DNA of 36,480 nt from Deltaproteobacteria bacterium (GCA_013151915.1 JAADHJ010000017.1:1-36480); one strand, 5' to 3'; shown: positions 9,477 through 28,465, counted from the stretch's first letter. Made by a program: numbers and translations. The notes: generated by a model from the sequence alone, not told the origin.

Positions 9477-9492
9477 TGGCATATCCCTTGCA
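9477..9492 (+). promoter_or_regulatory. Sigma-54 (RpoN) -24/-12 promoter
   Basis: TGGCATATCCCTTGCA fits the consensus TGGCAYR-N4-TTGCW at every position, with the invariant GG (9478-9479) and GC (9490-9491) at the correct spacing. It faces the Sll0783-like gene, predicting a leader of about 65 bases. The adjacent divergent gene encodes a sigma-54 activator, which supports the assignment strongly. Confidence 0.9.
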
Positions 9493-10171: not shown

Positions 10172-11041
10172 ATGGGACGTTTCAAGAAGGGAATGAAGGT
10201 CGGGCGCAAGGTTTTCGACGCCCATTGCCACATAGGGGGGATGGACAAGTTCCCCTATTACGGTCTTCCGGAACCGGTAAGTCCTACCGTGTTCGAGGAT
10301 CCTGACCGGGCCTCCAAAATAAAGCTTATGGATGAGCTCGGAGTGGACAGGGCCGTCGTCATGTCCAATTACGGGATCCCGGACCCGAACCAGCCCTTCG
10401 GGTTGAACCATGTGGTTCTGGAAGCCAGCAGCCATGATGACAAGAGGATCGTGGGAGGGATCTGGTTCTCTCCCATGGGCAAGATGAAAGTCGCGACCCT
10501 CGAAGCCCTCAAAGGAGCCGGTTCTCCGGGTATACAGGTTCTCAAGTCAACCTGTCTTCTGGGCGGCACCTGGGATTCGGAAGAGTGGGATGACGACACG
10601 AAGGAGAGTTGGGACGCCGTTCTGGCGACGGCCAGGGAGCACGACTACGTTCTGCACCTTCACACCAGCCCGGGCGGAGGTTCCGATGTAAGTAACTGCA
10701 TCAAGTTCGTCAGGAAGTACGGCAAGGAAGTGAAGGTGCACGTGGTCCACGCCGGTGGTGGCGTGTCGGGCCATATCAAGTTCATCCCGGAGTTCTTCAA
10801 CCTCATCCGCGAGGGGTATCAGGTTTACACGGACACCTCGTGGGCGGTGGGGTTCGGTCCGCGCTGGCTGTTCGACGAGATCGAGAAGCAGGGCATCGGC
10901 CACGACCGCGTTCTCTTCAGCTCTGACGAGCCCTGGAGCGATTTCTGGAGCGAGTACTATAAGATCGAGGGGCTTGAGATGTCCGAGGAGCTCAAGAACA
11001 ATGTGTTCTGGAACAACGCCGAGAGGCTGTACGGCGGGTAG
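10172..11041 (+). CDS. Amidohydrolase family protein (COG2159-like), operon-embedded
   Basis: The 289-residue TIM-barrel metallohydrolase shows the COG2159/Amidohydro_2 signature. It has an HxH metal-binding motif in FDAHCHIGG near residue 19, barrel-strand histidines in LHLHTSPGG and HVVHAGGG, and the catalytic aspartate in FSSDEPW near the C-terminus. Such enzymes hydrolyse or decarboxylate small ring or amide substrates. The start is the ATG at 10172, directly after a strong AAGGAGGGG binding site. It occupies the place of the nitrilase in typical Nit1C clusters, between the Sll0783-like and radical SAM genes, so it may perform the hydrolytic step there. The substrate is unknown. Confidence 0.87.
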   Translation: MGRFKKGMKVGRKVFDAHCHIGGMDKFPYYGLPEPVSPTVFEDPDRASKIKLMDELGVDRAVVMSNYGIPDPNQPFGLNHVVLEASSHDDKRIVGGIWFSPMGKMKVATLEALKGAGSPGIQVLKSTCLLGGTWDSEEWDDDTKESWDAVLATAREHDYVLHLHTSPGGGSDVSNCIKFVRKYGKEVKVHVVHAGGGVSGHIKFIPEFFNLIREGYQVYTDTSWAVGFGPRWLFDEIEKQGIGHDRVLFSSDEPWSDFWSEYYKIEGLEMSEELKNNVFWNNAERLYGG

Positions 11042-11111
11042 CTCTCTCGAAGACCGCTTGAGAGTGATTTTAACTGACAGCAAAAATCATATTCAGGAGA
11101 CCGTCAGGGTG

Positions 11112-12203
11112 ATGCAGGATAATTTCAGGGACCTTGTGGAGTTGCAAAGATGCGGCGTTCGGACCTGTAAAGACGGGATGTCCCGTCAGGGCGGTGCCGG
11201 ACCGACCGACGATAGGGCCCTGGTCTTTTCCAACGGCGTTACCCTGATGGTCCCCACCTTAAGCGAGAGCGCCGGGAACTCCGAGTATGTCCTGGAGGGT
11301 GTGGATGATCACCCTGTGCTTAAAAGAAACGGCAAGGTGGTCGACAAGGTTCGGATGGTCAGGAATCCGAAGTTTTACAGATACAAGACGGACGAGGGGA
11401 TCTCCTACAAGAAGATAGCCCGTCTCCACGGGTCCGAATGTCTCGCATCCACTGTTGTGCAGGAGTGCATCCGATACAATGATGTCTCCACGAGATGCCG
11501 TTTCTGCGCCATCGGCGTGTCTCTTGAACGGGGCGCAACGATTCACACCAAACGGCCGGAGCAGCTGGCGGAGGTTGCCTTGGCGGCCAGGAAGCTCGAC
11601 GGTGTTACTCACGTGACGTTGACCACAGGAACAACGGACCTGATGAACAAGGGGGCTGAGCACCTGGCGCGGTGCGCCTATTCCATCAAGCGCGAAGCGG
11701 GTCTACCGGTCCAGGCCCAGTGCGAACCCCCCGATGATGCAAACATCTTTTCCCACATGAAAAATATGGGCGTCGATGACCTGGGCATACACATTGAGAG
11801 CTTTGATCCGGAGGTGCGCCGTAAGTATACGCCGGGGAAAGCGTCCATCAGCATTGACGCCTATTTTGATTCCTTTGAAAAAGCGGTGATCGTATTCGGG
11901 AAAAACAAGGTCAGCACGTTTGTCATTCTCGGCCTGGGAGAGGACGAAGGGCTGACGCTCTCCCGATGCAGGGAGATCATCAGGATGGGGGTCTACCCCT
12001 ATCTGGTCCCGTTACGGCCGGTTTTGAACACTTTCCTGGTCAGGGCTGAGCCTCCCGATGGTGAGTATCTCTCTCGGATGTACAAGACTGTGGGAGCAAT
12101 GCTCCGGGAAAACGGGATGAGCGCCGAAAACAGCAGCGCCGGTTGCGTTAAATGCAAAGCGTGCTCGGTGCTTCAACTGACGGAAACCCGGAAGCATGCC
12201 TGA
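11112..12203 (+). CDS. MSMEG_0568 family radical SAM protein
   Basis: This 363-residue protein resembles the radical SAM partner of Nit1C clusters (Sll0785/MSMEG_0568). The Fe-S motif reads ECIRYNDVSTRCRFCAIG, with cysteines near 119, 129 and 132. This is C-x9-C-x2-C rather than the usual C-x3-C-x2-C. It is followed by the beta-strand/TIM-barrel segments HVTLTTGTTD, IHIESFDPEVR and STFVILGLGED. The extreme C-terminus carries a further C-x2-C-x2-C (about 345-351), which may hold an auxiliary cluster. It would generate a 5'-deoxyadenosyl radical to act on the pathway substrate. The ATG at 11112 follows AGGAGA at 11 bases; a GTG at 11064 is an alternative start. Confidence 0.88.
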   Translation: MQDNFRDLVELQRCGVRTCKDGMSRQGGAGPTDDRALVFSNGVTLMVPTLSESAGNSEYVLEGVDDHPVLKRNGKVVDKVRMVRNPKFYRYKTDEGISYKKIARLHGSECLASTVVQECIRYNDVSTRCRFCAIGVSLERGATIHTKRPEQLAEVALAARKLDGVTHVTLTTGTTDLMNKGAEHLARCAYSIKREAGLPVQAQCEPPDDANIFSHMKNMGVDDLGIHIESFDPEVRRKYTPGKASISIDAYFDSFEKAVIVFGKNKVSTFVILGLGEDEGLTLSRCREIIRMGVYPYLVPLRPVLNTFLVRAEPPDGEYLSRMYKTVGAMLRENGMSAENSSAGCVKCKACSVLQLTETRKHA

Positions 12204-12224: not shown

Positions 12225-12740
12225 ATGTCCGAAATAACAACGATCAGGAACGTGGGAAGTTCGGAAACCACCGTACCTTACGACCTGTCACCGGAGATCG
12301 AGGTAAGGATCGCAATCGAACCCGATGAAGTCGAGGCACACTTCGAGCTCCGGCACCAGGTGTTCGTCCAGGAGCAGGGGATCTTCCCGGAAACGGACCG
12401 GGACGAGCACGACGAAAACGGCATCCTCCTCATCGCCTGCCGCCGCGGCCGGGTTGTAGGGGCGGTGAGATGCTATCCCGTGACCATGAGCGTGTGGTAC
12501 GGGGGCCGTCTTGCCGTGCACCCGGATTACAGGAAGTACGATATCGGCGTACGTCTCGTTCGGAAGGCCGTCGAAACCGTTATGAACGATCCTGGCGTCA
12601 AGCATTTTCTGGCCACGGTTCAGATACAGAACGTCCGGTTTTTCAAGAGACTGGGGTGGATCAGCATCGATCAGCCGTTTCTGATGAAAGGCAGGCGGCA
12701 CCAGTTGATGGAGAAACCGCTGAATCGGTGTTCGCAGTGA
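12225..12740 (+). CDS. MSMEG_0567/Sll0786 family GNAT N-acetyltransferase
   Basis: The 171-residue protein is a GNAT acetyltransferase of the nitrogen-starvation (Nit1C) type. After an N-terminal extension, the segment EAHFELRHQVFVQEQGIFPETDRDEHD is characteristic. The acetyl-CoA binding region is VWYGGRLAVHPDYRKYDIGVRLVRKAVE, and NVRFFKRLGWI forms the usual C-terminal helix-strand. It would acetylate an amine, possibly an intermediate or toxic by-product. It follows the radical SAM gene by 21 bases, and its stop codon overlaps the OsmC GTG start (GTGA), so the two are translationally coupled. Confidence 0.9.
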   Translation: MSEITTIRNVGSSETTVPYDLSPEIEVRIAIEPDEVEAHFELRHQVFVQEQGIFPETDRDEHDENGILLIACRRGRVVGAVRCYPVTMSVWYGGRLAVHPDYRKYDIGVRLVRKAVETVMNDPGVKHFLATVQIQNVRFFKRLGWISIDQPFLMKGRRHQLMEKPLNRCSQ

Positions 12741-13132
12741 AGATCGAAGCGAGGTTCCTGGAAGGCTACAAGTTCGAGATGGTTTCAGAGCGGCTCTCCA
12801 TCACCTCGGATCAGGTGCCCATGTACGGCGGCGAAGGTGCCGGACCGATGCCCAGTGAGCTGTTCCTGTGGTCCATCGCCTCCTGCCTGGGACAGTCCGT
12901 TGCGCACGTCATGGGAAAGGTCCGGGAGCGCATCGCCGATCTGATACTGACGGTGGAGGGGGAAAAGCACCCCACCGAGTTCAGGTACAAGAAGATAATT
13001 ATCAACGTCGCGGCAGATTGTCCCGAGGACAGACTCACCGAGATCGTAGGAATAGCCAGGAAGGGTTGCTTCATATCGAACTCCCTGGCTGATGACATTG
13101 AGCTTGAGGTAACCGTGGATGGAGCAAGATGA
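12737..13132 (+). CDS. OsmC family protein
   Basis: The 131-residue protein is of the OsmC/Ohr superfamily, thiol peroxidases or thiol-handling proteins that act as domain-swapped dimers. The two cysteine positions expected of the fold are present: Cys50 in LWSIASCLGQSVAHVMGK and Cys111 in RKGCFISNSL, with an additional Cys95 in the ADCPED turn. It starts with GTG at 12737, overlapping the GNAT stop; the longer open frame upstream runs inside the GNAT gene and is not real. Its stop overlaps the AllG start as ATGA. OsmC is not part of typical Nit1C or oxamate clusters; it may detoxify a reactive sulfur, peroxide or cyanide-like product. Confidence 0.88.
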   Translation: MKIEARFLEGYKFEMVSERLSITSDQVPMYGGEGAGPMPSELFLWSIASCLGQSVAHVMGKVRERIADLILTVEGEKHPTEFRYKKIIINVAADCPEDRLTEIVGIARKGCFISNSLADDIELEVTVDGAR

Positions 13133-14532
13133 TCGACCTTGACCGTGACATCAGTGTCCTGAACATCGGTCTGGAAGGGTTTTACACAGAGCTCAGATCC
13201 CTGGGAGTCCCTGTCGTGCATGTGGACTGGCGGCCCCCTGCTGGAGGGGACAAGCGTCTCGGCAAGGCACTGGCCGCTCTGAGGGGGGCAAAATACGACA
13301 GGGCCAACGCCAACACTGTGGCGAGGATGGTCAAGAGCAGTCCCCGTTGGATCGACGTTGATACCGCACTGAACGTGATCCCGGGTATGAAGCCTAACCA
13401 CATACTTCATTCCGGCCCCCCCATCGATTTCGAGGATATGTGCGATCCGCAGCAGCGGGCAGTGGAAGGGGCCGCGGTATTCGAGGAGTGGGTGAAAAAC
13501 AGGTCGGAACTCAGAAGGAAGCTTCGAAACTCCGAGATCATCCTTGCGCCGAACTATTCAACCGGAAGCATCGGTCCCATGTGCGGCGTCATCACCCCCT
13601 CGATGAGCGTCATAGTCACCAGAAACACGACCTATCGGAACAGGTCCTGGTCCACCTTCAACGAGGGGAAGGGGAACGTCTTGTGGATGGGCACCTACGA
13701 TGAGGGGACCATACGGCGGCTCAAGTGGATAAAGGAAGTCATGGGGCCCGGGTTGAAACAGGCCCTGAAGAGGTCCGAAGGCGGTATAGACCTGTTCGGG
13801 ATCCTCTCGGAAGCCATCCAAATGGGAGATGAGGCACATGCCAGAAGCGCTGCTGCCACATTGCTGCTGCTCCGGCATCTTTTCCCGCTTCTTCTTCAGA
13901 CCGACCTGAACAGGAAAGAGATCCAGGAGATTGTCGCGTTCATCGGCGGCAACAACCACTTTTTCCTGAACCTCACCCTGACCGCATGCAAAGTCACCGC
14001 CGACGCGGCCCACGGTGTGAAAAACTCCACCGTCGTCACCGGCATGAGCAGGAACGGGGTCGAATTCGCCCTCAGGGTGGGTGGGGCCGGTGACAGGTGG
14101 TTCATTTCCGATACCGCCCCCATGGACGAGGCGATCTACTACACGGGGTATTCCCCGGAGGACGCCGCGGGGGATATCGGGGACAGCGCCATCGTCGAAA
14201 CCGTGGGGCTCGGTGGCATGGTTATCGGGGCCGCCCCAACCATAAGCTCCTTCGTGGGGGGATCCATGGCCGATTCCGTCCAGGCCATGAAGACCATGAA
14301 AAGCATCTGTGCGGGCACCAACCCCAAATTCGCTCTTGCTGCAGTGGATTTCATACCCGCTCCCCTCGGCATCGACATCCGGAAGGTGGTGAAAACCGGT
14401 GTCACACCAATCATCAACACGGGTGTAATCCACAGATCCTTGGATGTGGGGCAGATTGGAGCAGGGATCGCCCGGGCTCCCATGGAACCTTTCGTTCAGG
14501 CCCTGAAGTATATGGAGGAAAACGATGACTAA
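13129..14532 (+). CDS. allG: DUF1116 protein, oxamate carbamoyltransferase subunit AllG/YlbE
   Basis: The 467-residue protein belongs to DUF1116 (YlbE/YahG). In E. coli this subunit works with FdrA (AllF) and AllH in oxamate carbamoyltransferase, which phosphorolyses oxalurate to oxamate and carbamoyl phosphate. Visible signatures are VVHVDWRPPAGGD near residue 30, LHSGPPIDFEDMCDPQQRA near 90, and FIGGNNHFFLNLTLTACK near 265. Near 385-410 there is a glycine-rich GGMVIGAAPTISSFVGG. It is coupled to OsmC by an ATGA overlap and overlaps the carbamate kinase start by eight bases. That strict coupling and the FdrA and AllH genes downstream support the assignment. Confidence 0.9.
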   Translation: MIDLDRDISVLNIGLEGFYTELRSLGVPVVHVDWRPPAGGDKRLGKALAALRGAKYDRANANTVARMVKSSPRWIDVDTALNVIPGMKPNHILHSGPPIDFEDMCDPQQRAVEGAAVFEEWVKNRSELRRKLRNSEIILAPNYSTGSIGPMCGVITPSMSVIVTRNTTYRNRSWSTFNEGKGNVLWMGTYDEGTIRRLKWIKEVMGPGLKQALKRSEGGIDLFGILSEAIQMGDEAHARSAAATLLLLRHLFPLLLQTDLNRKEIQEIVAFIGGNNHFFLNLTLTACKVTADAAHGVKNSTVVTGMSRNGVEFALRVGGAGDRWFISDTAPMDEAIYYTGYSPEDAAGDIGDSAIVETVGLGGMVIGAAPTISSFVGGSMADSVQAMKTMKSICAGTNPKFALAAVDFIPAPLGIDIRKVVKTGVTPIINTGVIHRSLDVGQIGAGIARAPMEPFVQALKYMEENDD

Positions 14533-15475
14533 GCCAGTAGCGGTTGTGGCTTTCGGTGGCAACGCGATCCTCAGTTCCAACGAGGACATGTCCTTTGAAA
14601 CTCAGCTGAACAATGCCAAGGAAACGTGCAGGCAGATGCTGGGCATTTTGCGGAAACGCTATGAGATGGTCATCGTACACGGCAATGGGCCGCAGGTGGG
14701 AAACCTCCTCATACAGTTCGAGAGCGCGCGTGACATTATTCCCATCCCCCCCCTCGACGCGGCAGTGGCCTCTTCCCAGGGACTCCTGGGACACATGCTG
14801 CTTATAAGCATGCGTACGATGCTCGAGGAAGAATGCCTCCAGAAAGAGGTGACAGCGATCCTGACCCAGGTTGTGGTGGACGAGGAGGATCCGGCTTACC
14901 TGGAGCCCACCAAGCCGATAGGACCCTTTTACAGCAGGGAACGGGCCGAGGTACTCAAGAAGGAGAAGGGGTGGCACATGGTGGAGGACAGCAACCGCGG
15001 ATACCGCCGTGTGGTCTTCTCACCCCGTCCCCGGAAGATCATGGCCCTGAACGTGATCAGGCGGCTGATCGAGAGCGGGACCGTGGTCATTGCCTGCGGT
15101 GGAGGAGGGATCCCGGTCAATCACAAGACGGACAAGGTTATCGGGACGGAGGGCGTCATCGACAAGGATTTTACAGCCGCACTTCTCGCCTACAACCTCA
15201 ACGCGGAACTTTTCCTGATCCTGACGGCAGTCAACAAGGTCTGCGTGAATTACGGCAAGCCGGACCAATACGAAGTGGACGTCATGAGCGTTGCCGAGGC
15301 AAAAGCGTGGTTGAAGGAAGGCCATTTTCCACCGGGCAGCATGGGCCCGAAGATCGAAGCTGCCATTGAGTTCGTCGAAAGGGGCGGAAAGGAAGCCATC
15401 ATCACGGGAGAGAAAAACCTCCTGGCAGCCTTAAACCACGGGGTTTGCACCCGGATCATCGGCGAATACCCGTAA
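14525..15475 (+). CDS. arcC: Carbamate kinase
   Basis: The 316-residue enzyme of the amino-acid kinase fold makes ATP from carbamoyl phosphate and ADP, leaving carbamate that decays to ammonia and CO2. Family motifs are complete: AFGGNAILSS at the N-terminus, VIVHGNGPQVGN near 50-61, ACGGGGIPV near 190-198, and LTAVNKVCVNYGKP followed by GSMGPKIEAA in the C-terminal half. Its place between allG and fdrA matches the role of E. coli AllK/YbcF in oxamate fermentation rather than the arginine deiminase pathway; no arcA or arcB is present. The start overlaps allG by eight bases. Confidence 0.95.
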   Translation: MTKPVAVVAFGGNAILSSNEDMSFETQLNNAKETCRQMLGILRKRYEMVIVHGNGPQVGNLLIQFESARDIIPIPPLDAAVASSQGLLGHMLLISMRTMLEEECLQKEVTAILTQVVVDEEDPAYLEPTKPIGPFYSRERAEVLKKEKGWHMVEDSNRGYRRVVFSPRPRKIMALNVIRRLIESGTVVIACGGGGIPVNHKTDKVIGTEGVIDKDFTAALLAYNLNAELFLILTAVNKVCVNYGKPDQYEVDVMSVAEAKAWLKEGHFPPGSMGPKIEAAIEFVERGGKEAIITGEKNLLAALNHGVCTRIIGEYP

Positions 15476-15496: not shown

Positions 15497-17005
15497 ATGA
15501 CGATGCAGGCGATTGTAAGGAAAAATCAGTACCACGACTCCGTTCGGCTTATGACCATTTCCAGGCAGGCCGGTTCCCTTGAAGGGGTTAACAAGATTCT
15601 GGCGCTGATGGGTACGGAGGGGAACAAGAAGGTCCTGAAGGACCTTGGGCTATACAACGAGATGGTGGATTCCGCCACCCCCAACGATCTTGTCGTCTGC
15701 GTTGACGCGGATACCGGGGATGGTTTCAACAGCGCCCTGAAAAAGGTGGACGATCTTCTGAAATCGCGCACGCACGGTGGTCCGTCCGAGGACAGAGCCG
15801 CCCGGTCCCTGGAAGAGGCTGTGGAACAGATGCCGGACGCCAACTTCGCCCTCATCTCGGTCCCGGGTGAATTCGCCGCCCTCGAAGTGATGGGAGCACT
15901 GGAGAAGGACATTAACGTCATGCTTTTTTCCGACAACGTCTCCATCGAGGACGAGGTTTTTCTGAAGGACCTGGCCATGAGGAAGGGGCTGCTGATGATG
16001 GGGCCCGACTGTGGAACGGCCGTGATCAACGGCATCCCTTTCGCCTTCGCCAACATGGTTAGGCGGGGGGATGTGGGTATCGTCGGCGCCTCGGGAACCG
16101 GAATACAGGAGGTCTCCTGTCTCATCCACAGACTGGGAGGAGGCATCTCTCATGCCATCGGGGTGGGAGGGCGAGACCTGAGTCTGGAGGTGGGCGGGCG
16201 GATGATGGTGACGGCCATCAGGAAGCTTGCCGGTGACCCCTCTACCAAATCCTTGGTCCTGATCTCCAAATCCGGCGCGCCGGATTCGACCAGACGTGTG
16301 CTCACAGAGGCGAAAAAGAGCGGGTTGCCCACAGTAATCTGCCTCCTCGGGAAAGGAAATCTGCCCGGGGACGGTGGAGGGTTGACCTTCGTCAACACCC
16401 TGGAGGACGCGGCTTACAGGACCGCCGGCAAGGATAAGCCCGAATATGGCGCCGACGAGGACCTGACCGGAGAGATCGGCCGGCTGTCCGAAGAGAGGAA
16501 ATACCTGCGGGGGCTCTACTCAGGAGGCACCCTTTGCTACGAAGCCCTCCTCATCTTCAAGGAGGCGATGAAGGTCCATTCCAATATCGGGACCGGCAGG
16601 AAGTATACCGCGAACGGTCCGCGCAACTTCCATTACTGCCTCGATCTGGGTGATGATGAGTTTACCCGGAGCCGCCCTCATCCCATGATCGACTCGACGC
16701 TGCGCCGGGAATTTTTCATCCAGGCATACTCGGATCCGAAGACCAGGGTCGTCCTTCTGGACGTGGTGCTGGGGTACGGGGCGAGCGCGGACCCTGCCGG
16801 GGACATGGTGGCCGCCCTGGGAAAAGCTCGGGCTCACGCCTTCGGCGAAGGGCCGGTCGTCATGGCGCACGTCTGTGGTACCGACGAGGACCCGCAGTCC
16901 ATGAAAGATCAGGAAAGCAAATTGAGGGAGGCCGGTGTTTTCCTCTTTTCCACCAACGCCGAGGCGGCTCGTGCCGCTATGGCTGCTATCATTTCGTTAT
17001 CATGA
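15497..17005 (+). CDS. fdrA: FdrA family protein, oxamate carbamoyltransferase subunit AllF
   Basis: The 502-residue protein resembles succinyl-CoA synthetase alpha/beta fusions of the FdrA type. An N-terminal CoA-binding Rossmann region runs through MGPDCGTAVINGIPFAFANM and GIVGASGTGIQEVSCLIHRLGGG to HAIGVGGRDLSLEVGG. A ligase-CoA-like domain follows in the second half (SGGTLCYEALLIF; VVLLDVVLGYGA). E. coli FdrA is part of the carbamoyl-transferring oxamate complex rather than a known acyl-CoA ligase. It lies 21 bases after carbamate kinase. The start is the ATG at 15497 or the nearby ATG at 15503. The protein is somewhat shorter than E. coli FdrA (about 555 residues). Confidence 0.92.
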   Translation: MTMQAIVRKNQYHDSVRLMTISRQAGSLEGVNKILALMGTEGNKKVLKDLGLYNEMVDSATPNDLVVCVDADTGDGFNSALKKVDDLLKSRTHGGPSEDRAARSLEEAVEQMPDANFALISVPGEFAALEVMGALEKDINVMLFSDNVSIEDEVFLKDLAMRKGLLMMGPDCGTAVINGIPFAFANMVRRGDVGIVGASGTGIQEVSCLIHRLGGGISHAIGVGGRDLSLEVGGRMMVTAIRKLAGDPSTKSLVLISKSGAPDSTRRVLTEAKKSGLPTVICLLGKGNLPGDGGGLTFVNTLEDAAYRTAGKDKPEYGADEDLTGEIGRLSEERKYLRGLYSGGTLCYEALLIFKEAMKVHSNIGTGRKYTANGPRNFHYCLDLGDDEFTRSRPHPMIDSTLRREFFIQAYSDPKTRVVLLDVVLGYGASADPAGDMVAALGKARAHAFGEGPVVMAHVCGTDEDPQSMKDQESKLREAGVFLFSTNAEAARAAMAAIISLS

Positions 17006-17070: not shown

Positions 17071-18519
17071 ATGAACAGGAGGACCTGCGAAAGACTCAAT
17101 GGCGGCCTTGCGGAGAGGGTTTCCTTTGATCCAGAGGTTCTGGCCACTTACGATCACGATCTCGGCGAGATGCCCGCCCTTGTGATGTCTCTTATCAACA
17201 ACCGTCCCGAAGCTGTAGTCGTTGCCCGGTCCGTCGAGGATGTGAGGCAAGTGTTGTTGACCGGGGCTGAATTCGGGGTTCCTGTAACCCCCAGAGGGCA
17301 GGCCAGCTCCGGTTACGGGGGCGCCATTCCAACCGGAGGAGGGATTGTCCTGGACCTGACCGAGATGAACGGCGTCCTCGGTGTGGACAGGGAGAACATG
17401 ACGGTGGACGTGGAACCCGGGATCGTATGGAACGAACTGTCCCGCGAACTGAAGGGTGTCGATCTGGACAACCGCATCGTCCCTACCAGCGCGCCCTCAT
17501 CCACCGTCGGAGGATGGTTCGCCATGGGCGGGGCGGGGCTCGGGAGCCTGCTGTACGGAAACATGAGAGACGTGGTGACGGAGATCGACGTGATGGGACT
17601 CGACGGGGAGGTCATGACCTGCACTGGACAGGACCTGGACCTGCACTACCAGGCGTGCGGCACCCTTGGAGTGATCACGAGGCTCCGTCTCCGGTGCCGG
17701 GAGGCAGAGAAGCTTGTCCCCTTCGCTGTTGCCTTTCCTGACGCCGGCGCCTGTCATCGGTTCTCAAAGACCCTCTGTGACGAGATGGAGCCCTACTCCA
17801 TCTCCTTTCACTCTCCAGGGTACATCAGGATGAAAAAAGAACTCGGCGGCGATGAATCGATTCCAGAGAATTCGTTTCTGGTCGTCATGGCCATTCCCGA
17901 GAGGGCCGCGGACAAAAAAACACTGGAAGAGATCGCCGGCCGTTTCGATAGCCTGCTCCTCGATCACGAAACCGCGACTCATGCCTGGGAGGACCGTTTT
18001 TATCCCATGCGTATCAAGAAACTGGGCCCCTCCATCCTGGTGGGGGAGTTCTACCTTCCGTTGGACAAATTCCGCGAGGCCTGGGGTGAGATCGAGGCCG
18101 ACCTGTCCAGGGATCTCCTGGGCATGGAGGCTTTCGTTGTCCAGAACGGGCAGTTGGCCATCCTTGTGTACATCCTGGACGATGCCGGAAGTTTCTTCTA
18201 CCCGTTCCGCATGGCCAAGGCGTTAAGGCCCATCAGCATCGCCGAGCGACACGGCGGGACCCTCTATAATGCAGGCCTGTGGTTCGCATCCCGGTCACGC
18301 CGGGTTCTCGGTAAGAGCAGGTATGCCGCCTTTATGAAAAAGAAGAAGATCGTTGACCCGAAAGGGCTGCTCAACCCCGGCAAGATCGTCCCGCCGAAGG
18401 TGAAGTTTCTGCCGTTCATGGATGTCAGTTCTCTCCTTTACCTGTCGTCCTGGATAGCGTCGCCCATATCGAGGCTCCTCGTTTCCAGGCGGCCTTTCGT
18501 AAAGAGAGTGGGGAGCTAG
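17071..18519 (+). CDS. FAD-binding oxidoreductase, GlcD-like
   Basis: The 482-residue protein is a vanillyl-alcohol-oxidase-fold flavoprotein of the GlcD/lactate dehydrogenase type. The FAD-binding PCMH domain is seen as AVVVARSVEDVRQVL, PRGQASSGYGGAIPTGGGIVL and APSSTVGGWFAMGGAGLGSLLYGNM in the first 170 residues. The family C-terminal end KGLLNPGKIVPPKVKF is also present, with a short hydrophobic tail. It should oxidise a 2-hydroxy acid or related alcohol and pass electrons to the Fe-S subunit encoded 4 bases downstream. A strong AAGGAGGGG site supports the ATG at 17071 (or GTG 17068). Its insertion between fdrA and allH suggests it acts on an ureidoglycolate-like intermediate. Confidence 0.9.
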   Translation: MNRRTCERLNGGLAERVSFDPEVLATYDHDLGEMPALVMSLINNRPEAVVVARSVEDVRQVLLTGAEFGVPVTPRGQASSGYGGAIPTGGGIVLDLTEMNGVLGVDRENMTVDVEPGIVWNELSRELKGVDLDNRIVPTSAPSSTVGGWFAMGGAGLGSLLYGNMRDVVTEIDVMGLDGEVMTCTGQDLDLHYQACGTLGVITRLRLRCREAEKLVPFAVAFPDAGACHRFSKTLCDEMEPYSISFHSPGYIRMKKELGGDESIPENSFLVVMAIPERAADKKTLEEIAGRFDSLLLDHETATHAWEDRFYPMRIKKLGPSILVGEFYLPLDKFREAWGEIEADLSRDLLGMEAFVVQNGQLAILVYILDDAGSFFYPFRMAKALRPISIAERHGGTLYNAGLWFASRSRRVLGKSRYAAFMKKKKIVDPKGLLNPGKIVPPKVKFLPFMDVSSLLYLSSWIASPISRLLVSRRPFVKRVGS

Positions 18520-18523
18520 AAAA

Positions 18524-19705
18524 ATGGGAAAAGGCAGAATGGACTCATGGAGCAAAGTGGACAATCAGGGTGATCTGTCCTTTTCCGTTGATACTTGCGC
18601 CCGGTGCGGATTCTGCAAGCCGGTGTGCACGACTCACCCCTTTGGAGGGGGGTTCGAGGCGTTCTCGCCGCGGGCGAAGGTGCACTACATCAAACAGGTA
18701 ATGAGGGGGAAGGAAAAGCTTACGCCCCAATGGGTGGACCGCCTATACCAGTGCACGACCTGCGAGAGGTGTGTGGAGGTCTGCCAGACTGAGATCCCGC
18801 TGGTCCATCTCTGGGAGGAGCTGCGGGCCGAAACGGTCAGGCGTGGTATCGGACCCATGCCGATGCACAGGAAAATGGGGGAGGCGGTTGACGAGCACAA
18901 CAACCCCTACGGTGAACCTGCAGAGGAGAGGAGCCGCTGGATGCTTCCCCACCACAGGCCCACTGAAGGGGCTGAATTGTTGGTGTTCGGCGGGTGCACC
19001 GGTTCGTACCGGATGACTGCCATGCTCCAGACTGGAGTCTCCATCCTCCAGCGGATGGACATCCCGTACTATTATGCGGGAGGTAAGGAGGTGTGCTGTT
19101 CGAGTCCCATGATCCGTACGGGTCAGCTCGAGTCGGCCGCCCGGCTCATCGGAAGCAACATCGACCTGTTCAACGATCTGGGTGTGAAGACGATCGTCAC
19201 ACCCTGCGCCGGCTGCTCCAAGACTATGAAATCGGACTACCCGGTGTGGGCCGGGAAGCTGGGGAAGGAGTGGGCCGTCGAGGTCAGGCACTTCTCCGAG
19301 CTCTACGTCGAACTGCTGCGTGACGGCAGGATCAAACCTGTGCGCAGGATCGGGAAGAAAGCAACCTACCACGATCCTTGCCATCTTGGCCGATCCCAGA
19401 GGATTTTCGACGAACCCAGGGAGATCCTGTCGGCCATACCCGGATTAACGCTGGTGGAGATGGAATATTCCCGCGACAACGCCAGATGCTGTGGAGCGGG
19501 CGGCGGGTTCAAGGGGCACTACCCTATGATGGCTGAGGAGGTCTCAGACAAGAGAGTCCTCGATGCGGTCCACACGGGGGCTGAACTGCTCGTCACCATG
19601 TGCCCTTTCTGCCAGGCGAGCTTCTCGCAGTCCATCGAAAAGCTTGGTTTGAGTATCAAGCTGATCGGGGTGGAGGAGCTCCTTCTCCAGTCGGTCGAGG
19701 GCTGA
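18524..19705 (+). CDS. Fe-S oxidoreductase, GlcF/CCG-domain subunit
   Basis: The 393-residue electron-transfer partner of the flavoprotein has two 4Fe-4S ferredoxin motifs (CARCGFCKPVC near 26-36 and CTTCERCVEVC near 78-88). Two CCG domains follow, including a CCSSPMIRTGQ turn with TPCAGCSKTM in the first and DPCHLGRSQRIF, ARCCGAGGGF and MCPFCQASF in the second. CCG domains bind a further Fe-S centre, as in GlcF, LutA and heterodisulfide reductase subunit B. The electron acceptor is probably membrane quinone or a soluble carrier; no transmembrane helix is seen. It is four bases after the glcD-like gene and one base before allH. Confidence 0.92.
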   Translation: MGKGRMDSWSKVDNQGDLSFSVDTCARCGFCKPVCTTHPFGGGFEAFSPRAKVHYIKQVMRGKEKLTPQWVDRLYQCTTCERCVEVCQTEIPLVHLWEELRAETVRRGIGPMPMHRKMGEAVDEHNNPYGEPAEERSRWMLPHHRPTEGAELLVFGGCTGSYRMTAMLQTGVSILQRMDIPYYYAGGKEVCCSSPMIRTGQLESAARLIGSNIDLFNDLGVKTIVTPCAGCSKTMKSDYPVWAGKLGKEWAVEVRHFSELYVELLRDGRIKPVRRIGKKATYHDPCHLGRSQRIFDEPREILSAIPGLTLVEMEYSRDNARCCGAGGGFKGHYPMMAEEVSDKRVLDAVHTGAELLVTMCPFCQASFSQSIEKLGLSIKLIGVEELLLQSVEG

Positions 19706-19706
19706 A

Positions 19707-20567
19707 ATGGAGTCTGGGTCCATCGGCTGCGCCGCCGTCGAGTTGATGCGGTCATGTGCCACAGGACGGGTAACGGCGGTTTTTGAAAGATCAGCTCACC
19801 TTGAACTGGATGGAGTCATCCTCACCCTCGGGAACCTTGACCTCCCGGGCCATCCGTACACCATTCGGTGCCCCGAGTTCCCCCGAGGTCTTCGGAGGGG
19901 ACAGGAGTTCAAGGTCGAGGAAGATGCAGTCATCATACCGGGATGCCGCCGCCTGGAACTCGGGCAGATGGATGTCTTCCGATCCAGGGTGAAGGTCGGC
20001 GCCATGGCCGGTCTGGAGGAGATGCAGCAGGCCCTGCAGGCGGTTCGCTACACGGTCGCCACCGCCTCGTTCAGGGACGGTTTTCATTCCTTCGTCATCG
20101 CGAGTCTTCATCACGGTATGATGACTCAGGCGGTTCTGCCCGTGATCCAACGGCTCACCGTTGCCATCCGGGAGGGCGATTGGGAAGCGATGGTCGAAGC
20201 CGGGGTGGATCTGGCGGGAGTTGGAGAGGGGTTGACGCCTTCAGGGGATGATTTCCTGGCGGGGCTGGTGGCCGCGCTGCGTTTCCACCGCACCAGCGGC
20301 GGACCCGGTCCGGAAAACCGACAGCTCGAATCCCTGGCTTCACGGGCACGTGGCCGCACGTCCGCTTTTTCGGCCCAGAATATAGCTTCGGCCGCCAGGG
20401 GCCTGGTGTCGGACGCGGTGTCGGAATGGCTCGAACACTTCCACCTCGGTGATTCAGATGCCCTGGTGGATTCTACGCGCCGGCTCCTGGATTTCGGTCA
20501 CTCGAGCGGAGTGGACACGATCGCAGGGATGACCACCGGCCTGGCCGCGGTCCTGGAGCGGTGGTGA
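19707..20567 (+). CDS. allH: DUF2877 protein, oxamate carbamoyltransferase subunit AllH/YlbF
   Basis: The 286-residue protein matches DUF2877 (E. coli YlbF/AllH), the third subunit of the oxamate carbamoyltransferase complex. The characteristic segments are GVGEGLTPSGDDFLAGLVAAL near residues 170-190 and LLDFGHSSGVDTIAGMTTGLAAVL at the C-terminus. Finding it beside FdrA and DUF1116 makes the three-subunit set complete, though the gene is separated from fdrA by the glcD/glcF-like pair. The start ATG lies one base after the Fe-S gene stop, and its stop TGA overlaps the next start, so it is translationally coupled on both sides. Confidence 0.88.
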   Translation: MESGSIGCAAVELMRSCATGRVTAVFERSAHLELDGVILTLGNLDLPGHPYTIRCPEFPRGLRRGQEFKVEEDAVIIPGCRRLELGQMDVFRSRVKVGAMAGLEEMQQALQAVRYTVATASFRDGFHSFVIASLHHGMMTQAVLPVIQRLTVAIREGDWEAMVEAGVDLAGVGEGLTPSGDDFLAGLVAALRFHRTSGGPGPENRQLESLASRARGRTSAFSAQNIASAARGLVSDAVSEWLEHFHLGDSDALVDSTRRLLDFGHSSGVDTIAGMTTGLAAVLERW

Positions 20568-21529
20568 TGAAACCGACCGACCTGTCTGAACTTGCAGATC
20601 ATATCCGGCGTTCGCCTCAGTTCCAACAGAAACGGATCATTGCCCCCACTCTGGGCGGCGCCGGGTTCAGGGCTGCGGCGATGGGCTTCGTCAACGGTGA
20701 CGACGCAGCCGCGATACCCGACGGCGACGGTTTTCTTCTCCTGGCCGCGGAGGCGATCACCCCGTCCCTGGTTCGCCGCGACCCGTTCCTGGCCGGCAGG
20801 AGCGCAGTCCTGGCCAACGTCAACGACATCTACTCCATGGGCGGCCGACCAGTGGCCATCGTCGATGTCATTCTCGCCGAAGACACCGGGACATCCGCTG
20901 AAATATTCAGGGGGGTTGCCGATTTTTCAATGCGGCTGCAGGTTCCGGTGGTAGGAGGTCACACCACCGTCGCCGAAGGCCCTCCTTCAGTATCTCTTGC
21001 CATCCTTGGAAAGGCCGCCAGGCTCATAACCAGCTTCGATGCACGGCCGGGCGATCGCATGGCTCTGGTCTACAACTCGGATGGTGAGTGGCTTGAGGAC
21101 CTGGGATTCTGGAACTCGCTTCCGGGAAGGACAGGTGCGGAGCATGTCGCTGACCTGGAACTCCTTCCCATGGCCGCGGAATCGGGCCTGGTCAGGGCCG
21201 GGAGAGACGTAAGCATGTGTGGGATAGCGGGTACGGCTCTGATGCTCCTGGAAGCATCCCGCGTGGGCGCCCGCGTGGAACTGGAGCGTATCACGATCCC
21301 GGAAGGGGTTCATCCCGGGCGGTGGCTGTTGGCGTATTTTTCCTACGGCTTTATCCTCGCGGTGGGTGATAAGCAGTGGAACGATGTCGTGGACCTGTTC
21401 GGGGCCAGGTCTCTTCAGGTCCTGCAGATCGGGACCTTCTTGTCGGGATCGCAGCTGATCCTGTCGGCCGGCGGCCGGCAAGAGGTTCTGTGGGACTGGT
21501 CTGCGAAACCGTTCCTGGGGTTCAGGTGA
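20567..21529 (+). CDS. Sll0787 family AIR-synthase-like protein
   Basis: The 320-residue protein has the two-domain PurM/ThiL-like (AIR synthase) ATP-binding fold and belongs to the Sll0787 family of Nit1C clusters. Signatures are FVNGDDAAAIPDGDGFLLLAAEAITPSLV, SAVLANVNDIYSMGGRPVAIVDVIL and VPVVGGHTTVAEGPPSVSLAILG, followed by the C-terminal domain around SMCGIAGTALMLLEAS. Relatives phosphorylate or cyclise substrates with ATP (PurM, ThiL, SelD, HypE). The exact reaction here is unknown. The preferred start is the ATG at 20567 that overlaps the allH stop; GTG codons at 20561 and 20564 are possible. The downstream gene starts within its stop codon. Confidence 0.88.
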   Translation: MKPTDLSELADHIRRSPQFQQKRIIAPTLGGAGFRAAAMGFVNGDDAAAIPDGDGFLLLAAEAITPSLVRRDPFLAGRSAVLANVNDIYSMGGRPVAIVDVILAEDTGTSAEIFRGVADFSMRLQVPVVGGHTTVAEGPPSVSLAILGKAARLITSFDARPGDRMALVYNSDGEWLEDLGFWNSLPGRTGAEHVADLELLPMAAESGLVRAGRDVSMCGIAGTALMLLEASRVGARVELERITIPEGVHPGRWLLAYFSYGFILAVGDKQWNDVVDLFGARSLQVLQIGTFLSGSQLILSAGGRQEVLWDWSAKPFLGFR

Positions 21530-22305
21530 GGGAGTGCGCCCGACCCTCGTGGGGCGTGTCAAGCAGGTTTTTCCTGCCCAATGAGGACGCCCGGATGGTT
21601 CGCGAGGCGATAGCCGCACTCGACGATCCCCCGCTGCGCCCGGTCTTTGTCGGAGGGTCCGGGTTCCTGCCGGTGGAAGCGGCCAGGTCCCTCCCGGAGG
21701 GCGTGAGACCCGTATACGTGGACATATCCTCCTTCCAGGTGAAATTTTTCCGGCGCTTTCTGAAGGCTCTTGTCGACAGTGACACGCCGGAACAATTGAG
21801 GAACTGGTTTTCCAGGGATGTCTATCCCGTGTTGAAGGAGCATTACCGGAAGTACCGGGGCCGGTTTTACAGCCGGAACCAGGTCTTCACCGCCCTTGAA
21901 AAGCTGTTCCGGATCGATTTTTTCTTCCAGGCGGAGGCCCTTCAGGAGGCCAGGAGAATTGCCGGGTCGATGGTCGACGTCCAGCAGGACATCAGGACTT
22001 ACCTGTCCGAATCCGGGCGGTGTCATGATTTCATTTGCCTGAGCAACGTACTGGACTACCTGCCGAGGGAGGAACTGGTCCCCATGTTCGGGGCCTGCCG
22101 GGCATCGGGCGCATCCGTCTACGCCCTTATGACGGAAGCCTGCCGCCACCCCCGTGATGTGACCGAGGCCTGGGAACGAGCGGGGTATTCCCTCCACCCA
22201 CTGGCGGATGAACTTACGGTGAGAAACCGGGGGCTCGGTTCATGGACGCTGGGGCGCAGCTGGAACCGGTCGGGAAATATCAGGCTTCTGGTTCCGGGCG
22301 CCTGA
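21526..22305 (+). CDS. Unrecognised protein, coupled to the operon
   Basis: This 259-residue protein starts with GTG at 21526, overlapping the preceding stop (GTGA), so it is certainly expressed with the operon. I do not recognise the family. It has a beta-alpha layout with PVFVGGSGFLP near 45-55, VRPVYVDISSFQVKFFRRFLKAL near 70-90 and HDFICLSNVLDYLPREEL near 165-185, which ends like a SAM-methyltransferase-type Rossmann fold (an acidic residue after strand 2, SNVLDYLP at strand 4). The middle is rich in basic and aromatic residues (about 105-140). A distant relation to SAM-dependent amino-carboxypropyl- or methyltransferases is possible but unproven. There is no signal peptide or membrane helix. 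Confidence 0.8.
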   Translation: MRECARPSWGVSSRFFLPNEDARMVREAIAALDDPPLRPVFVGGSGFLPVEAARSLPEGVRPVYVDISSFQVKFFRRFLKALVDSDTPEQLRNWFSRDVYPVLKEHYRKYRGRFYSRNQVFTALEKLFRIDFFFQAEALQEARRIAGSMVDVQQDIRTYLSESGRCHDFICLSNVLDYLPREELVPMFGACRASGASVYALMTEACRHPRDVTEAWERAGYSLHPLADELTVRNRGLGSWTLGRSWNRSGNIRLLVPGA

Positions 22306-22363: not shown

Positions 22364-23353
22364 ATGAAGAAAATTGCTCTTATCGCGACATTTATCGTGC
22401 TTACCGCAGTGGCGATCTTCCAGATAAGAAATATGGTTTCAAGCAGAGATCAGCCTTTACCGGAGCCCGTCAGAATGGCGTATCTGCAAAATGACATCCA
22501 TCATCTCGCGCTATGGGTCGCTCTGGATAAAGGCTTCTTCAGGGATGAGGGTGTCGATGTCCAGATAAGCGGTATTTTCAGGGCCGGGCCGGAGATCATG
22601 AACGCCTTTTCCGCCGGTGCCCTGGACATGGCCTACGTGGGCGAGGCGCCTTCGACCTTCGCGGTGGCCAACGTGAAGAGCGACGTGAAGGTGGTGGCAC
22701 AGGTCAACACGGAGGGGTCGGCCCTGGTGGTGGCCGCCGGCCAAACGGATATAGAGGACGTTTCAGCCCTGAAGGGAAAGAATGTGGCAATCCCGGGCCA
22801 TGCGACGGTCCAGGATTTTCTGCTCAAGAAGGCGCTCACAACAGCTGGGGTGGACCCGTCGGAGGTCAACCTTATCATCCTTAAGCCGCCCGAGATGATC
22901 GGTGCTCTACGCTCCGGCCAGATAGACGCGTTCATCGCCTGGGAACCATATCCCTCCAAGGCGTTTATAGCCGGTGTCGGCAGAGTCCTGGCCGGCTCCC
23001 ACGATATCTGGCCTGATCATCCCTGCTGCGTCCTGGTGTCAGACACCGCCTTTATGGAGGCCCACCCCGCCAGGGTGGCAAAGGTCCTCAGGGCCCACGT
23101 CCGGGCAACGGATTTCATAAAGGCGAATCCAGAGGAGGCGTTGCGTGTGGGGGTCAAGTACACGGGAATGGATAAAGCCACGGTGCGCAAGGCCCTCAGA
23201 TCGGTGACTTATACCTACATCCCCAGCATCGAGGGTGAGAAGGAGTACGTCCGTTTCCTGTCTGAACTCGGATATATCAAAGTCTCCGACCCTGACTCCT
23301 TCGTCTCCGGATTCATCAAGTCGGGTCTCCTGGACAGGATCGAGGACAGATGA
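22364..23353 (+). CDS. ABC transporter substrate-binding protein (SsuA/TauA/NMT1-like)
   Basis: The 329-residue periplasmic binding protein begins with an N-terminal hydrophobic signal or anchor (about residues 4-22). The NMT1/SsuA signatures follow: MAYLQNDIHHLALWVALDKGFFRDEGVDVQ, then AGPEIMNAFSAGALDMAYVGEAPSTFAVAN and DAFIAWEPYPSKA. Family members bind sulfonates, taurine, nitrate, cyanate, bicarbonate, thiamine precursors or aromatic nitrogen compounds. With no lipobox cysteine it may be soluble or anchored by an uncleaved helix. It opens a three-gene importer following the catabolic genes and presumably delivers their substrate. Its stop overlaps the permease start (ATGA). Confidence 0.9.
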   Translation: MKKIALIATFIVLTAVAIFQIRNMVSSRDQPLPEPVRMAYLQNDIHHLALWVALDKGFFRDEGVDVQISGIFRAGPEIMNAFSAGALDMAYVGEAPSTFAVANVKSDVKVVAQVNTEGSALVVAAGQTDIEDVSALKGKNVAIPGHATVQDFLLKKALTTAGVDPSEVNLIILKPPEMIGALRSGQIDAFIAWEPYPSKAFIAGVGRVLAGSHDIWPDHPCCVLVSDTAFMEAHPARVAKVLRAHVRATDFIKANPEEALRVGVKYTGMDKATVRKALRSVTYTYIPSIEGEKEYVRFLSELGYIKVSDPDSFVSGFIKSGLLDRIEDR

Positions 23354-24105
23354 GAGGAAAGCAGCTGATCCCGCTTCTCCTTCTGATCCTTGCCTGGCAG
23401 GCCTTGAGTTCGCTGGGCGGAGTCCCGTCCTACAAACTGCCCTCGCCGCTCCAGGTTCTCGCGGGCCTCATGGATCTGATAAAAGTGGGTCTGCCGCCTG
23501 GGCACCGCCTGCACATGCACATCCTGTATAGCCTACATAGGGTTTCTCTGGGGTACCTGTTCGCCGCCGTGACTGCGATTCCCATGGGACTCGCGATGGG
23601 CTGGTCCAGGAGGTTCCGCAACATGATTGGACCGCTGCTGGAGCTGTTCAGGCCCATCCCCCCGCTGGCCTGGATCCCCATCGCCATCCTGTGGTTCGGT
23701 ATCGGGACAAAGTCAGCAGTGTTTATCATTTTCCTGGGCGCTTTCTTTCCGATCCTGCTCAATACAGCCTCCGGAGTCCTGGCGGTGGACCCCCTCCTGG
23801 TGGAAGCGGTCCTGACGCTCAACGGCCGTAACAGGGACGTCATTTTGAAGGTCCTCATTCCCGGTGCAGTCCCCTCGATCATGACCGGCTTGAGGATCGG
23901 CGTCGGCCTGGGATGGATGACCCTGGTGGCGGCGGAGTTCTCCGGCGTCAAGCAGGGTTACGGTTTAGGGTATATGATCATGACGGCCAGGGATATCCTG
24001 CGTCCGGATGAGATCCTGGCGGGGATGTTCGTGATCGGATTGATCGGACTCACCATAGACGGCGGCCTGCGGCTGCTTGAAAAGAATCTCGTCAAATGGA
24101 GATAG
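23350..24105 (+). CDS. ABC transporter permease (SsuC/TauC-like)
   Basis: The 251-residue inner-membrane protein has about six hydrophobic helices and the BPD_transp_1 fold. It contains the SLGYLFAAVTAIPMGLAMGWSRRFRN and FRPIPPLAWIPIAILWFGIGTKSAVFIIFLGAFFPILLNT segments typical of nitrate/sulfonate/bicarbonate permeases. The coupling EAA-like loop reads LTLNGRNRDVILKVLIPGAVPSIMTGLRIGVGLGW. The start codon overlaps the binding-protein stop and the ATPase gene follows after 16 bases, so the transporter is a single unit. Confidence 0.93.
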   Translation: MRGKQLIPLLLLILAWQALSSLGGVPSYKLPSPLQVLAGLMDLIKVGLPPGHRLHMHILYSLHRVSLGYLFAAVTAIPMGLAMGWSRRFRNMIGPLLELFRPIPPLAWIPIAILWFGIGTKSAVFIIFLGAFFPILLNTASGVLAVDPLLVEAVLTLNGRNRDVILKVLIPGAVPSIMTGLRIGVGLGWMTLVAAEFSGVKQGYGLGYMIMTARDILRPDEILAGMFVIGLIGLTIDGGLRLLEKNLVKWR

Positions 24106-24121
24106 GAAGCAGAGAATAACA

Positions 24122-24877
24122 ATGGCACTGAGCCTTACACTGTCCAACATGACCAAGGTGTACCCGGAGAACGACTCATCCCGGCAGGTCCGGGTCCTCG
24201 ACGGGATTGACTGCCACATTGAAAAAGGGGAGTTTTTTTCCGTCGTCGGACCCAGTGGGTGCGGGAAAACAACCCTGTTGAGAATTCTCGCCGGTTTGGA
24301 AAGCGCCACAGGGGGCCGCTGTCTGGTCAACGGGGACGCCATTGTCCGAAACGATCGGCGGGTGGGGATGATCTTCCAGGAGTTTGCCCTTTTGCCCTGG
24401 AGGACAACGGTGCAGAATATCGAGGTGGGGTTGGAGATCCTGGGTGTCCCCAGGAAGGAAAGGCAGGTTGAAGCTCTCCGATACATCAATGAGTTCGGAC
24501 TCGAGGGTTTCGAGAACACCTATCCCAGGATGCTGTCCGGCGGCATGAAGCAGAGGGTGGCCATAGCCAGGACCCTTGTCACCAACCCCGAGGTTGTGCT
24601 GATGGATGAGCCCTTCGGCTCACTGGACAGCCAGTCCAGGATGGAGATGCAGAACTTCCTGCTCGACGTCTGGGACCGGCGCAAAATGACGGTGGTATTT
24701 GTCACCCATAGCGTGAACGAGGCGGTCTATCTGGGCGACAGGGTGATGGTCCTGTCCAAACGGCCATCGAGGCTCATGGACATCATCGATGCCAGGATTC
24801 CCAGACCCAGAGACCGGACAAGTCCTGAACTGATGGAGCTCAAGAAGGAGATCCTGGAACTGTGCACGGCCCGCTGA
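24122..24877 (+). CDS. ABC transporter ATP-binding protein (SsuB/TauB-like)
   Basis: The 251-residue ATPase drives the importer encoded with it. Walker A is GPSGCGKTT near 43-51, the Q-loop lies in MIFQEFALLPWRT, the signature is LSGGMKQRVAIART near 139-152 and Walker B is VVLMDEPFGSLDSQ. All catalytic elements are intact. The open frame extends back into the permease gene, but the ATG at 24122 with GGAAGCAGAG upstream gives the family's normal length. It is the last gene of the operon, and a strong terminator follows after about 100 bases. Confidence 0.93.
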   Translation: MALSLTLSNMTKVYPENDSSRQVRVLDGIDCHIEKGEFFSVVGPSGCGKTTLLRILAGLESATGGRCLVNGDAIVRNDRRVGMIFQEFALLPWRTTVQNIEVGLEILGVPRKERQVEALRYINEFGLEGFENTYPRMLSGGMKQRVAIARTLVTNPEVVLMDEPFGSLDSQSRMEMQNFLLDVWDRRKMTVVFVTHSVNEAVYLGDRVMVLSKRPSRLMDIIDARIPRPRDRTSPELMELKKEILELCTAR

Positions 24878-24976: not shown

Positions 24977-25018
24977 GCACCAGTAAAAAAAAGCCCCCAA
25001 AAGGGGGCGTTTTTTTAC

Positions 25019-26902: not shown

Positions 26903-28465
26903 TTATTTATGTCCATACCCCCCTCCACCCGGTGTTTCAATCCTTATTATGTCGTCCTTCTGAAGAGTGGCCGAGAACTTGCCGCCCTTCTCAATCCACT
27001 TGCCCGAATGCTGGACGATATTCCTCCCGGCAGCACCGGGCTCCCCTCCGTAAAGGCCGTACGGCCGATGTCTTCTCCTTTCCGATAGAACGGTGATCTC
27101 CGCTTCAGACAGCAGATGGATCTCCCTGACAAGGCCTTCACCGCCCCTGTAGAGTCCTCTGCCGCCGGTTCCTCGGCGTATGGAATACTCCGTTACGAGA
27201 AAGGGGAAACTGTATTCCAGGGCCTCTATCGGCGTGTTGAGTGTATTCGTCATGTGTGAGTGGACCGCGCTCTCTCCATCGTTTCCTGCCGCAGCCCCCA
27301 TGCCACCGGCGATAGTTTCGTAATAAGCGAAGGGCTTCCCATTCCTGGGATCGATACCCCCTATTGTTATATTGTTCATGGTCCCTTGACTGGCGGCTGG
27401 AATTTTTCCCGGCAGAGCCTGGGAGAGGGCGCCGAACACCACATCTACTATGCGCTGAGATGTTTCCACATTCCCGCCCGCCACAGGGGCCGGGATGCGG
27501 GCATCCACTATTGTGCCCTTATCGGTAATAATCTCCAGGGGCCTGAGGCAACCGGCGTTTGTGGGAATATCCCTTCCAACAAGGGTACGGAATACGTAAA
27601 GAACCGCCGAGAGTGTAATAGCATATACCGCGTTCACACATCCCCTGGCCTGCTTGTCAGACCCTCTGAAGTCGATGGTCGCTTCGTCGCCCTTTATGGT
27701 TACGGAGACGGCGATTTTGATTTCCTCCTCACTGATCCCATCGTCGTCCATGTAGTCCTCAAAGGAGTAGGTGCCGTCAGGTATGTCCCTGATCGTAAGA
27801 CGGGTGATTTTCTCGGCGTAGTCCATCAGGCTTTTCGCGTAAAATTCCACGGTCTTGAACGAATATTTCTCTACCAGTTCCGAGGTTCTGCGAACTCCCG
27901 TCATATTGCTCATGATCTGGGCGGCGAAATCCCCCTCTCTTTCGGTGGGCGTCCGGACGTTATTCAGGATGAACGTCATCAGCTTTGCATCAATGCTTCC
28001 TCCCTCGACGATTTTGAGGGGCGGGATGATAATACCCTCCTGAAAGATGGAACTTGAAAGCGGCATGGAGCCGGAGCTCATGCCCCCGACATCGGCATGG
28101 TGAGCCCTGTTGGCTACGTAGAAGGCGGGCGCCTTTCGGCCTGCGTACACAGGAGCGACGATTGTTATGTCCGGCAGGTGAGTGCCGCCCTTGTACGGGT
28201 CGTTGAGGATCACCATATCTCCCTCCTCTAACGTAGCGCTTTCAATGGCCGACATTACGGACATAGGCATGGAGCCGAGGTGAACGGGTATGTGAGCCGC
28301 CTGTGCTATCATCTGGCCTTCCGCATCAAAGACGGCGCAGGAAAAGTCCCTCCTCTCCTTTATGTTCGGCGAGAATCCCGTTCGCATCAGCGTCACACCC
28401 ATTTCCTCGGAGATGGAGGAGAATCGGTTTTTGAATACTTCTATTAAGATAGGATTAATGTTCAT
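26903..28465 (-). CDS. hyuB: Hydantoinase B/oxoprolinase family protein
   Basis: The 520-residue protein is the beta subunit of an ATP-dependent lactam/hydantoin-opening enzyme (HyuB, or the C-terminal part of 5-oxoprolinase). Signatures are an N-terminal RFSSISEEMGVTLMRTGFS, the metal-site region ILNDPYKGGTHLPD with NRAHHADVGGMSSGS, and the C-terminal glycine-rich RIETPGGGGYG. It works with HyuA, encoded nine bases upstream, which activates the substrate with ATP. The family covers 5-oxoproline, N-methylhydantoin, caprolactam and acetone/acetophenone carboxylation, so the exact substrate is open. It is the last gene of the liv-hyu operon. Confidence 0.93.
   Translation of the reverse strand: MNINPILIEVFKNRFSSISEEMGVTLMRTGFSPNIKERRDFSCAVFDAEGQMIAQAAHIPVHLGSMPMSVMSAIESATLEEGDMVILNDPYKGGTHLPDITIVAPVYAGRKAPAFYVANRAHHADVGGMSSGSMPLSSSIFQEGIIIPPLKIVEGGSIDAKLMTFILNNVRTPTEREGDFAAQIMSNMTGVRRTSELVEKYSFKTVEFYAKSLMDYAEKITRLTIRDIPDGTYSFEDYMDDDGISEEEIKIAVSVTIKGDEATIDFRGSDKQARGCVNAVYAITLSAVLYVFRTLVGRDIPTNAGCLRPLEIITDKGTIVDARIPAPVAGGNVETSQRIVDVVFGALSQALPGKIPAASQGTMNNITIGGIDPRNGKPFAYYETIAGGMGAAAGNDGESAVHSHMTNTLNTPIEALEYSFPFLVTEYSIRRGTGGRGLYRGGEGLVREIHLLSEAEITVLSERRRHRPYGLYGGEPGAAGRNIVQHSGKWIEKGGKFSATLQKDDIIRIETPGGGGYGHK

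Follow-up and report, generated by a model that had tools for sequence, protein, structure and literature searches.

What does a flavoprotein paired with an iron-sulfur (Fe-S) protein do in the midst of carbamoyltransferase genes? The question is raised by a stretch of 36,480 nucleotides from a Deltaproteobacteria bacterium (GCA_013151915.1 JAADHJ010000017.1:1-36480), in the following termed the window, in which a GlcD-like flavin adenine dinucleotide (FAD) dehydrogenase without 2-hydroxy-acid metal site (17071-18519, + strand; FAD_binding_4 116 bits, FAD-oxidase_C 31 bits) and a GlcF/TfrB-like Fe-S protein (18524-19705, +; CCG 117 bits plus 4Fe-4S) are encoded between FdrA/AllF (15497-17005, +; NF004760 491 bits, cut-off 433; PDB 3dmy 293 bits) and AllH (19707-20567, +; PF11392 80 bits). 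A first-pass annotation had described this arrangement and taken the pair as a plausible substitute for AllD. We find both open reading frames intact in this position and the carbamoyltransferase genes indeed split, although the split goes further than described, with AllG (13129-14532, +; PF06545 252 bits) and the carbamate kinase ArcC/AllK (14525-15475, +; TIGR00746 370 bits, cut-off 358) also standing before FdrA. The position of the pair between fdrA and allH had been recognized correctly, but the Nit1C-type cluster in which allG, arcC, fdrA, allH and the pair are embedded had not. Tentatively, and with somewhat less than even confidence, we propose that the pair constitutes a two-subunit FAD/Fe-S dehydrogenase inside a sigma-54-controlled nitrogen-scavenging operon, a variant of Nit1C without nitrilase.

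Organization and conservation of the operon

The genes of AllG, the carbamate kinase, FdrA, the GlcD-like and GlcF-like proteins and AllH share the + strand between 13129 and 20567 with small or negative gaps, which amount to 65 bases between FdrA and GlcD, 4 between GlcD and GlcF, 1 between GlcF and AllH and –7 between AllH and the following NitF. AllF, AllG and AllH are all present and linked to a carbamate kinase, as in the allFGHK operon of E. coli, whose AllFGH is a proven oxamate transcarbamylase (PMC11326118). Unlike in the E. coli context, AllB, AllC, AllD or AllA-type genes are missing from the window, the subunit genes are interrupted by the glcDF-like pair and a C-terminal stretch of FdrA is found at the N-terminus of AllG (13129-13290), whose match to the final 50 positions in the FdrA model of E. 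coli indicates a shifted boundary between both proteins.

These genes are placed within the core of a Nit1C cluster, encompassing NitB of the MSMEG_0572/Sll0783 family (9569-10054, +; TIGR04044 218 bits, cut-off 110), the radical SAM protein NitD of the MSMEG_0568 family (11046-12203, +; TIGR04043 429 bits, cut-off 304), the GNAT N-acetyltransferase NitE, MSMEG_0567/Sll0786 (12225-12740, +; TIGR04045 137 bits, cut-off 68) and the AIR-synthase-like NitF of the sll0787 family (20561-21529, +), which at 317.8 bits falls slightly below the TIGR04049 cut-off of 321.3. Their identities to an annotated nit1C cluster of Burkholderia are 56% (NitB), 45% (NitD), 41% (NitE) and 41% (NitF). A NitA-like sigma-54-dependent regulator comprising GAF and AAA+ domains with a GAFTGA motif (7728-9350, – strand; Sigma54_activat 229 bits, GAF 48 bits) is divergently encoded, as is NitA in the nit1C cluster of Pseudomonas, where Nit1C has been tied to the assimilation of cyanide-nitrogen (PMC11049912). 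The locus therefore shares with the Nit1C cluster (NitA-NitBCDEFGH; Sll0783-type nitrogen-starvation) the divergent regulator, NitB, NitD, NitE and NitF and their relative order, but it is devoid of the Nit6803-type nitrilase, the MSMEG_0570 protein and the MSMEG_0569 flavoprotein, and it adds an amidohydrolase, an OsmC-like protein, AllFGH, carbamate kinase, the GlcDF-like pair, a possible methyltransferase and an importer. Although the Nit1C nitrilase has been described as strictly bound to the core (PMC1199592), no such protein (NitC/Nit6803, subfamily 1) is found in the cluster, and the best match of the nitrilase model TIGR04048 in the whole genome, a carbamoylputrescine-amidase-like protein, reaches 47 bits compared to a cut-off of 502.6. 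Among the window proteins tested, there was also no counterpart of the nitrilase, glycosyltransferase, MSMEG_0570 and MSMEG_0569 proteins of the Burkholderia cluster.

The slot of the nitrilase is occupied by a PF04909 amidohydrolase (10172-11041, +; 69 bits). Sequence searches of the PDB identified no relative of this protein and no significant relative of NitB. The remaining genes encode an OsmC-like protein (12743-13132, +; PF02566 53 bits), a protein of unassigned family with a weak methyltransferase-like signal (21526-22305, +), whose copy in a second genome matches Methyltransf_25 with E=4e-4 at 55% identity between both copies, and a three-gene SsuA/SsuC/SsuB-type ATP-binding cassette (ABC) importer (22364-24877, +; TIGR01728 189 bits, above its cut-off, with permease and ATPase matches). 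AlphaFold models of this putative methyltransferase and of the GlcD-like protein were of low confidence (mean predicted local distance difference test score 46) and were not used.

Upstream of nitB, a sigma-54 –24/–12 promoter element (TGGCAT-N5-TTGCA, 9477-9492, +) is one of two matches with one mismatch in the 36 kb window, both located in the gap between nitA and nitB, compared to 0.69 expected, and the element is kept in the second genome. A hairpin resembling a bidirectional terminator (GCCCCC-AAAA-GGGGGC, flanked on either side by T runs; 24993-25008, unstranded) follows ssuB. From the tight or overlapping junctions, the conserved promoter element and this hairpin, we infer that 16 genes form a single transcript, in which the core of a nitrilase-free Nit1C cluster is merged with a carbamoyltransferase and a carbamate kinase, and in which the pair is apparently co-transcribed with FdrA, AllG, AllH and ArcC.

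A second genus of the family (G011; metagenome-assembled genome, isolate PFL40) carries these genes in identical order, on two contigs that are broken inside nitD. There, the regulator occupies the identical divergent place (832 bits) and the amidohydrolase the identical slot (580 bits). Both copies of the GlcD-like protein are 64%, of the GlcF-like protein 78% and of AllG 77% identical, with AllG being at most 47% identical to any other AllG in our survey. At the first, second and third codon positions the identities are 73, 84 and 45% for GlcD and 83, 89 and 50% for GlcF, and across the compared operon genes third positions are 41-50% and first and second positions 68-89% identical. This pronounced difference indicates purifying selection on the proteins and, together with the order kept in the second genus, suggests more than a chance juxtaposition of the pair and its neighbours. 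A third case of the hybrid was found neither in a sample of 386 genomes, nor in 82 genomes of one phylum, nor among the listed best plasmid matches. A scan of the whole collection with a GlcD alignment returned the second genome only, which, due to poor peptide patterns, does not establish rarity across species. A search of the PubMed Central literature gave no report in which nit1C and allFGH are combined.

The flavoprotein, its relatives and the Fe-S subunit

Could the pair be an ordinary glycolate or D-lactate dehydrogenase that is merely located in the operon? It shares its FAD_binding_4 and CCG domains with GlcD and GlcF, and the combination of a FAD domain with a separate or fused CCG Fe-S part is common to GlcDEF, D-lactate dehydrogenase (D-LDH) and the D-2-hydroxyglutarate dehydrogenase YdiJ. 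However, the GlcD-like protein scores 92 bits against TIGR00387 (cut-off 568) and is 28% identical to the ordinary GlcD of the same genome. Zn2+ is bound by His434, His441 and Glu475 in human D-2-hydroxyglutarate dehydrogenase, where His476 is proposed to act as base; a change at any one of these residues abolishes activity, and D-LDH and GlcD show strict conservation of their equivalents (PMC7801405). The four positions read H/H/E/H in the genome's ordinary GlcD and in E. coli GlcD and YdiJ, but V/Q/L/Y in the window protein and L/R/L/Y in its second-genome copy. Instead, the window protein, which is not accompanied by a GlcE, contains the motifs HxWxxRF and K..GP[ST], common to fusion proteins of about 880-1058 residues that combine GlcD and GlcF in one polypeptide. 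Possibly, the arginine of HxWxxR takes the role of the carboxylate-binding Arg386, from which it is one alignment column off.

A phylogenetic tree of 14 rows places the GlcD-like protein with the longer of these fusions (support 96/97) and apart from YdiJ and GlcD, including the ordinary GlcD of this genome (99/98). The grouping with glycolate or lactate oxidases that would have spoken against the first-pass annotation did thus not occur. An ordinary glycolate or lactate oxidase was ruled out as candidate by motif and tree, and, considering also the conserved place in the operon, the corresponding reading appears largely refuted and extremely improbable. To annotate the pair as glycolate oxidase, or as a substitute for AllD, would be misleading in this case. 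As the GlcD-like protein is most closely related to proteins in which both parts are fused in the same domain order, the assignment of the two window subunits to one functional complex is supported.

The GlcF-like protein contains exactly 18 cysteines, accounting for two [4Fe-4S] motifs and two complete CCG motifs of the form CX31-39CCX33-38CXXC, as found in proteins of the GlcF/HdrB type. One GlcD-GlcF fusion gene adjoins rnfC/rnfD and others adjoin aldehyde ferredoxin oxidoreductase genes, so the acceptor of the pair may be a quinone, ferredoxin or linked to Rnf. Such fusions without the metal site are widespread (L133-L140, L158-L166), and in contrast to the window pair, no Nit1C or AllFGH genes were found at the eight fusion loci read. 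As a separate observation, three genomes (G053, G198, G330; L116-L118, L138-L140) are those outside the family in which a NitD-type radical SAM protein exceeds the TIGR04043 cut-off; no other nit1C genes are nearby, and the same genomes carry a shorter GlcD-GlcF fusion elsewhere.

The relation to AllD and allantoin breakdown

In light of the adjacent and co-conserved AllFGH and carbamate kinase, it appeared plausible that the pair replaces AllD in converting ureidoglycolate, chemically a 2-hydroxy acid, to oxalurate, with ureidoglycolate originating from allantoin breakdown or import. The first-pass annotation had noted the absence of allD, and we find the AllD family (PF02615) neither in this genome nor in any of 12 genomes of the family; moreover, nitrifiers have been reported with allFGHK but without the upstream allantoin genes (PMC12625717). 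To assess what this absence implies, we turned to the loci of allG, which was found in 43 of 386 sampled genomes. Among 43 allG loci outside the window, a few of them cut by contig ends, an AllD homologue is adjacent in one case, a GlcDF pair in another (the second genus) and neither in 41, which does not bear out the expected mutual exclusion. Since AllD adjoins so few allG loci, its absence is normal and says nothing about replacement. A source of ureidoglycolate is equally elusive: the genome encodes two Amidohydro_1 proteins, an apparent adenine deaminase and an apparent dihydroorotase, leaving no allantoinase (AllB), and AllC was not found in the genome, whose best M20 protein is not AllC, while AllE was not searched for. 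The genes surrounding the pair are those of the Nit1C core instead of allantoin genes, and nothing ties the pair to allantoin breakdown. Combined with the V/Q/L/Y residues at the metal site, these observations undermine the argument for a replacement of AllD, which we consider rather improbable.

The further proposal that the pair makes the substrate of the carbamoyltransferase holds in part. An oxidation step tied to carbamoyl transfer is reasonable because the pair is co-conserved with FdrA, AllG, AllH and ArcC and because its FAD domain and Fe-S ligands are intact, but the loss of the metal-binding and catalytic residues argues against a plain conversion of ureidoglycolate to oxalurate.

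In the course of the survey, the large subunit of a molybdenum hydroxylase was detected within the fetched stretch at 24 of the 43 allG loci (L061-L097, L011-L016), which hints at purine-type pathways as the usual context of AllFGH. One of the allG loci, in a genome of the same genus (G001, L011), is a different allFGHK locus with genes of a TRAP transporter and a gamma-glutamyltranspeptidase-like protein, whose AllG is 42% identical to that of the window.

A proposed pathway and its significance

In our preferred reading as nitrogen-scavenging dehydrogenase, SsuABC would bring in a nitrogen-rich compound, which the NitB/NitD/NitE/NitF core and the amidohydrolase would rework. The GlcD-like subunit would oxidise an intermediate on its FAD, and a quinone or low-potential carrier would receive the electrons by way of the GlcF-like subunit. 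From the resulting oxalurate-like N-carbamoyl product, AllF/G/H would release carbamoyl phosphate by phosphorolysis, and carbamate kinase would convert this into ATP, ammonia and CO2. For the last two steps there are characterised counterparts in E. coli (PMC11326118, PMC9843812), whereas the others are suggested by gene content and control, which is also the basis on which we infer the catabolic direction, the order of steps, the electron acceptor and the class of substrate. That the cluster is a nitrilase-free Nit1C pathway ending in carbamoyl phosphate and ATP, with a GlcD-type enzyme devoid of the metal site oxidising the intermediate of the core for AllFGH and carbamate kinase, is a possibility to which we attach well below even confidence.

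Several points weigh against this catabolic assignment. The active site of the GlcD-like protein may be unable to oxidise a C-OH group at all, and the reading assumes that AllFGH works in its known direction on a compound resembling oxalurate. The hybrid has been found in just two genomes of one family, and the Nit1C core was without established chemistry when described (PMC1199592), so that the operon could be biosynthetic. In the latter case, carbamate kinase and AllFGH acting in reverse would carbamoylate an intermediate, whose oxidation state is set by GlcDF, en route to a nitrogen-rich product. Genes such as those for the radical SAM, GNAT and AIR-synthase-like proteins and the possible methyltransferase often occur in biosynthetic clusters, and the kinetic measurements on E. 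coli AllFGH started from carbamoyl phosphate and oxamate, which is the carbamoylating direction (PMC11326118). Conversely, the importer comes after the enzyme genes, the control of the operon is of the nitrogen-scavenging type, and a low-affinity reverse reaction (Km of 37 mM for oxamate in E. coli; PMC11326118) would offer a poor route to a product. We thus regard a biosynthetic role as unlikely.

The 2005 description of the core noted its conservation across phyla but assigned no reaction to it (PMC1199592). A nitrilase-less variant joined to a carbamoyltransferase of known reaction narrows what this core can make and, if our proposal is correct, the nitrilase-free pathway would show the kind of product. 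The hybrid operon also provides a defined set of proteins to assay for core chemistry.

Downstream of the importer, the – strand of the window (26903-36380) carries genes that the second genome does not keep next to its hybrid operon. They encode a hydantoinase/oxoprolinase pair of the CapA/CapB-like type, a complete Liv-type ABC transporter and a protein read by eye as DUF1445 (35583-36380), and apparently constitute a second unit for nitrogen compounds.

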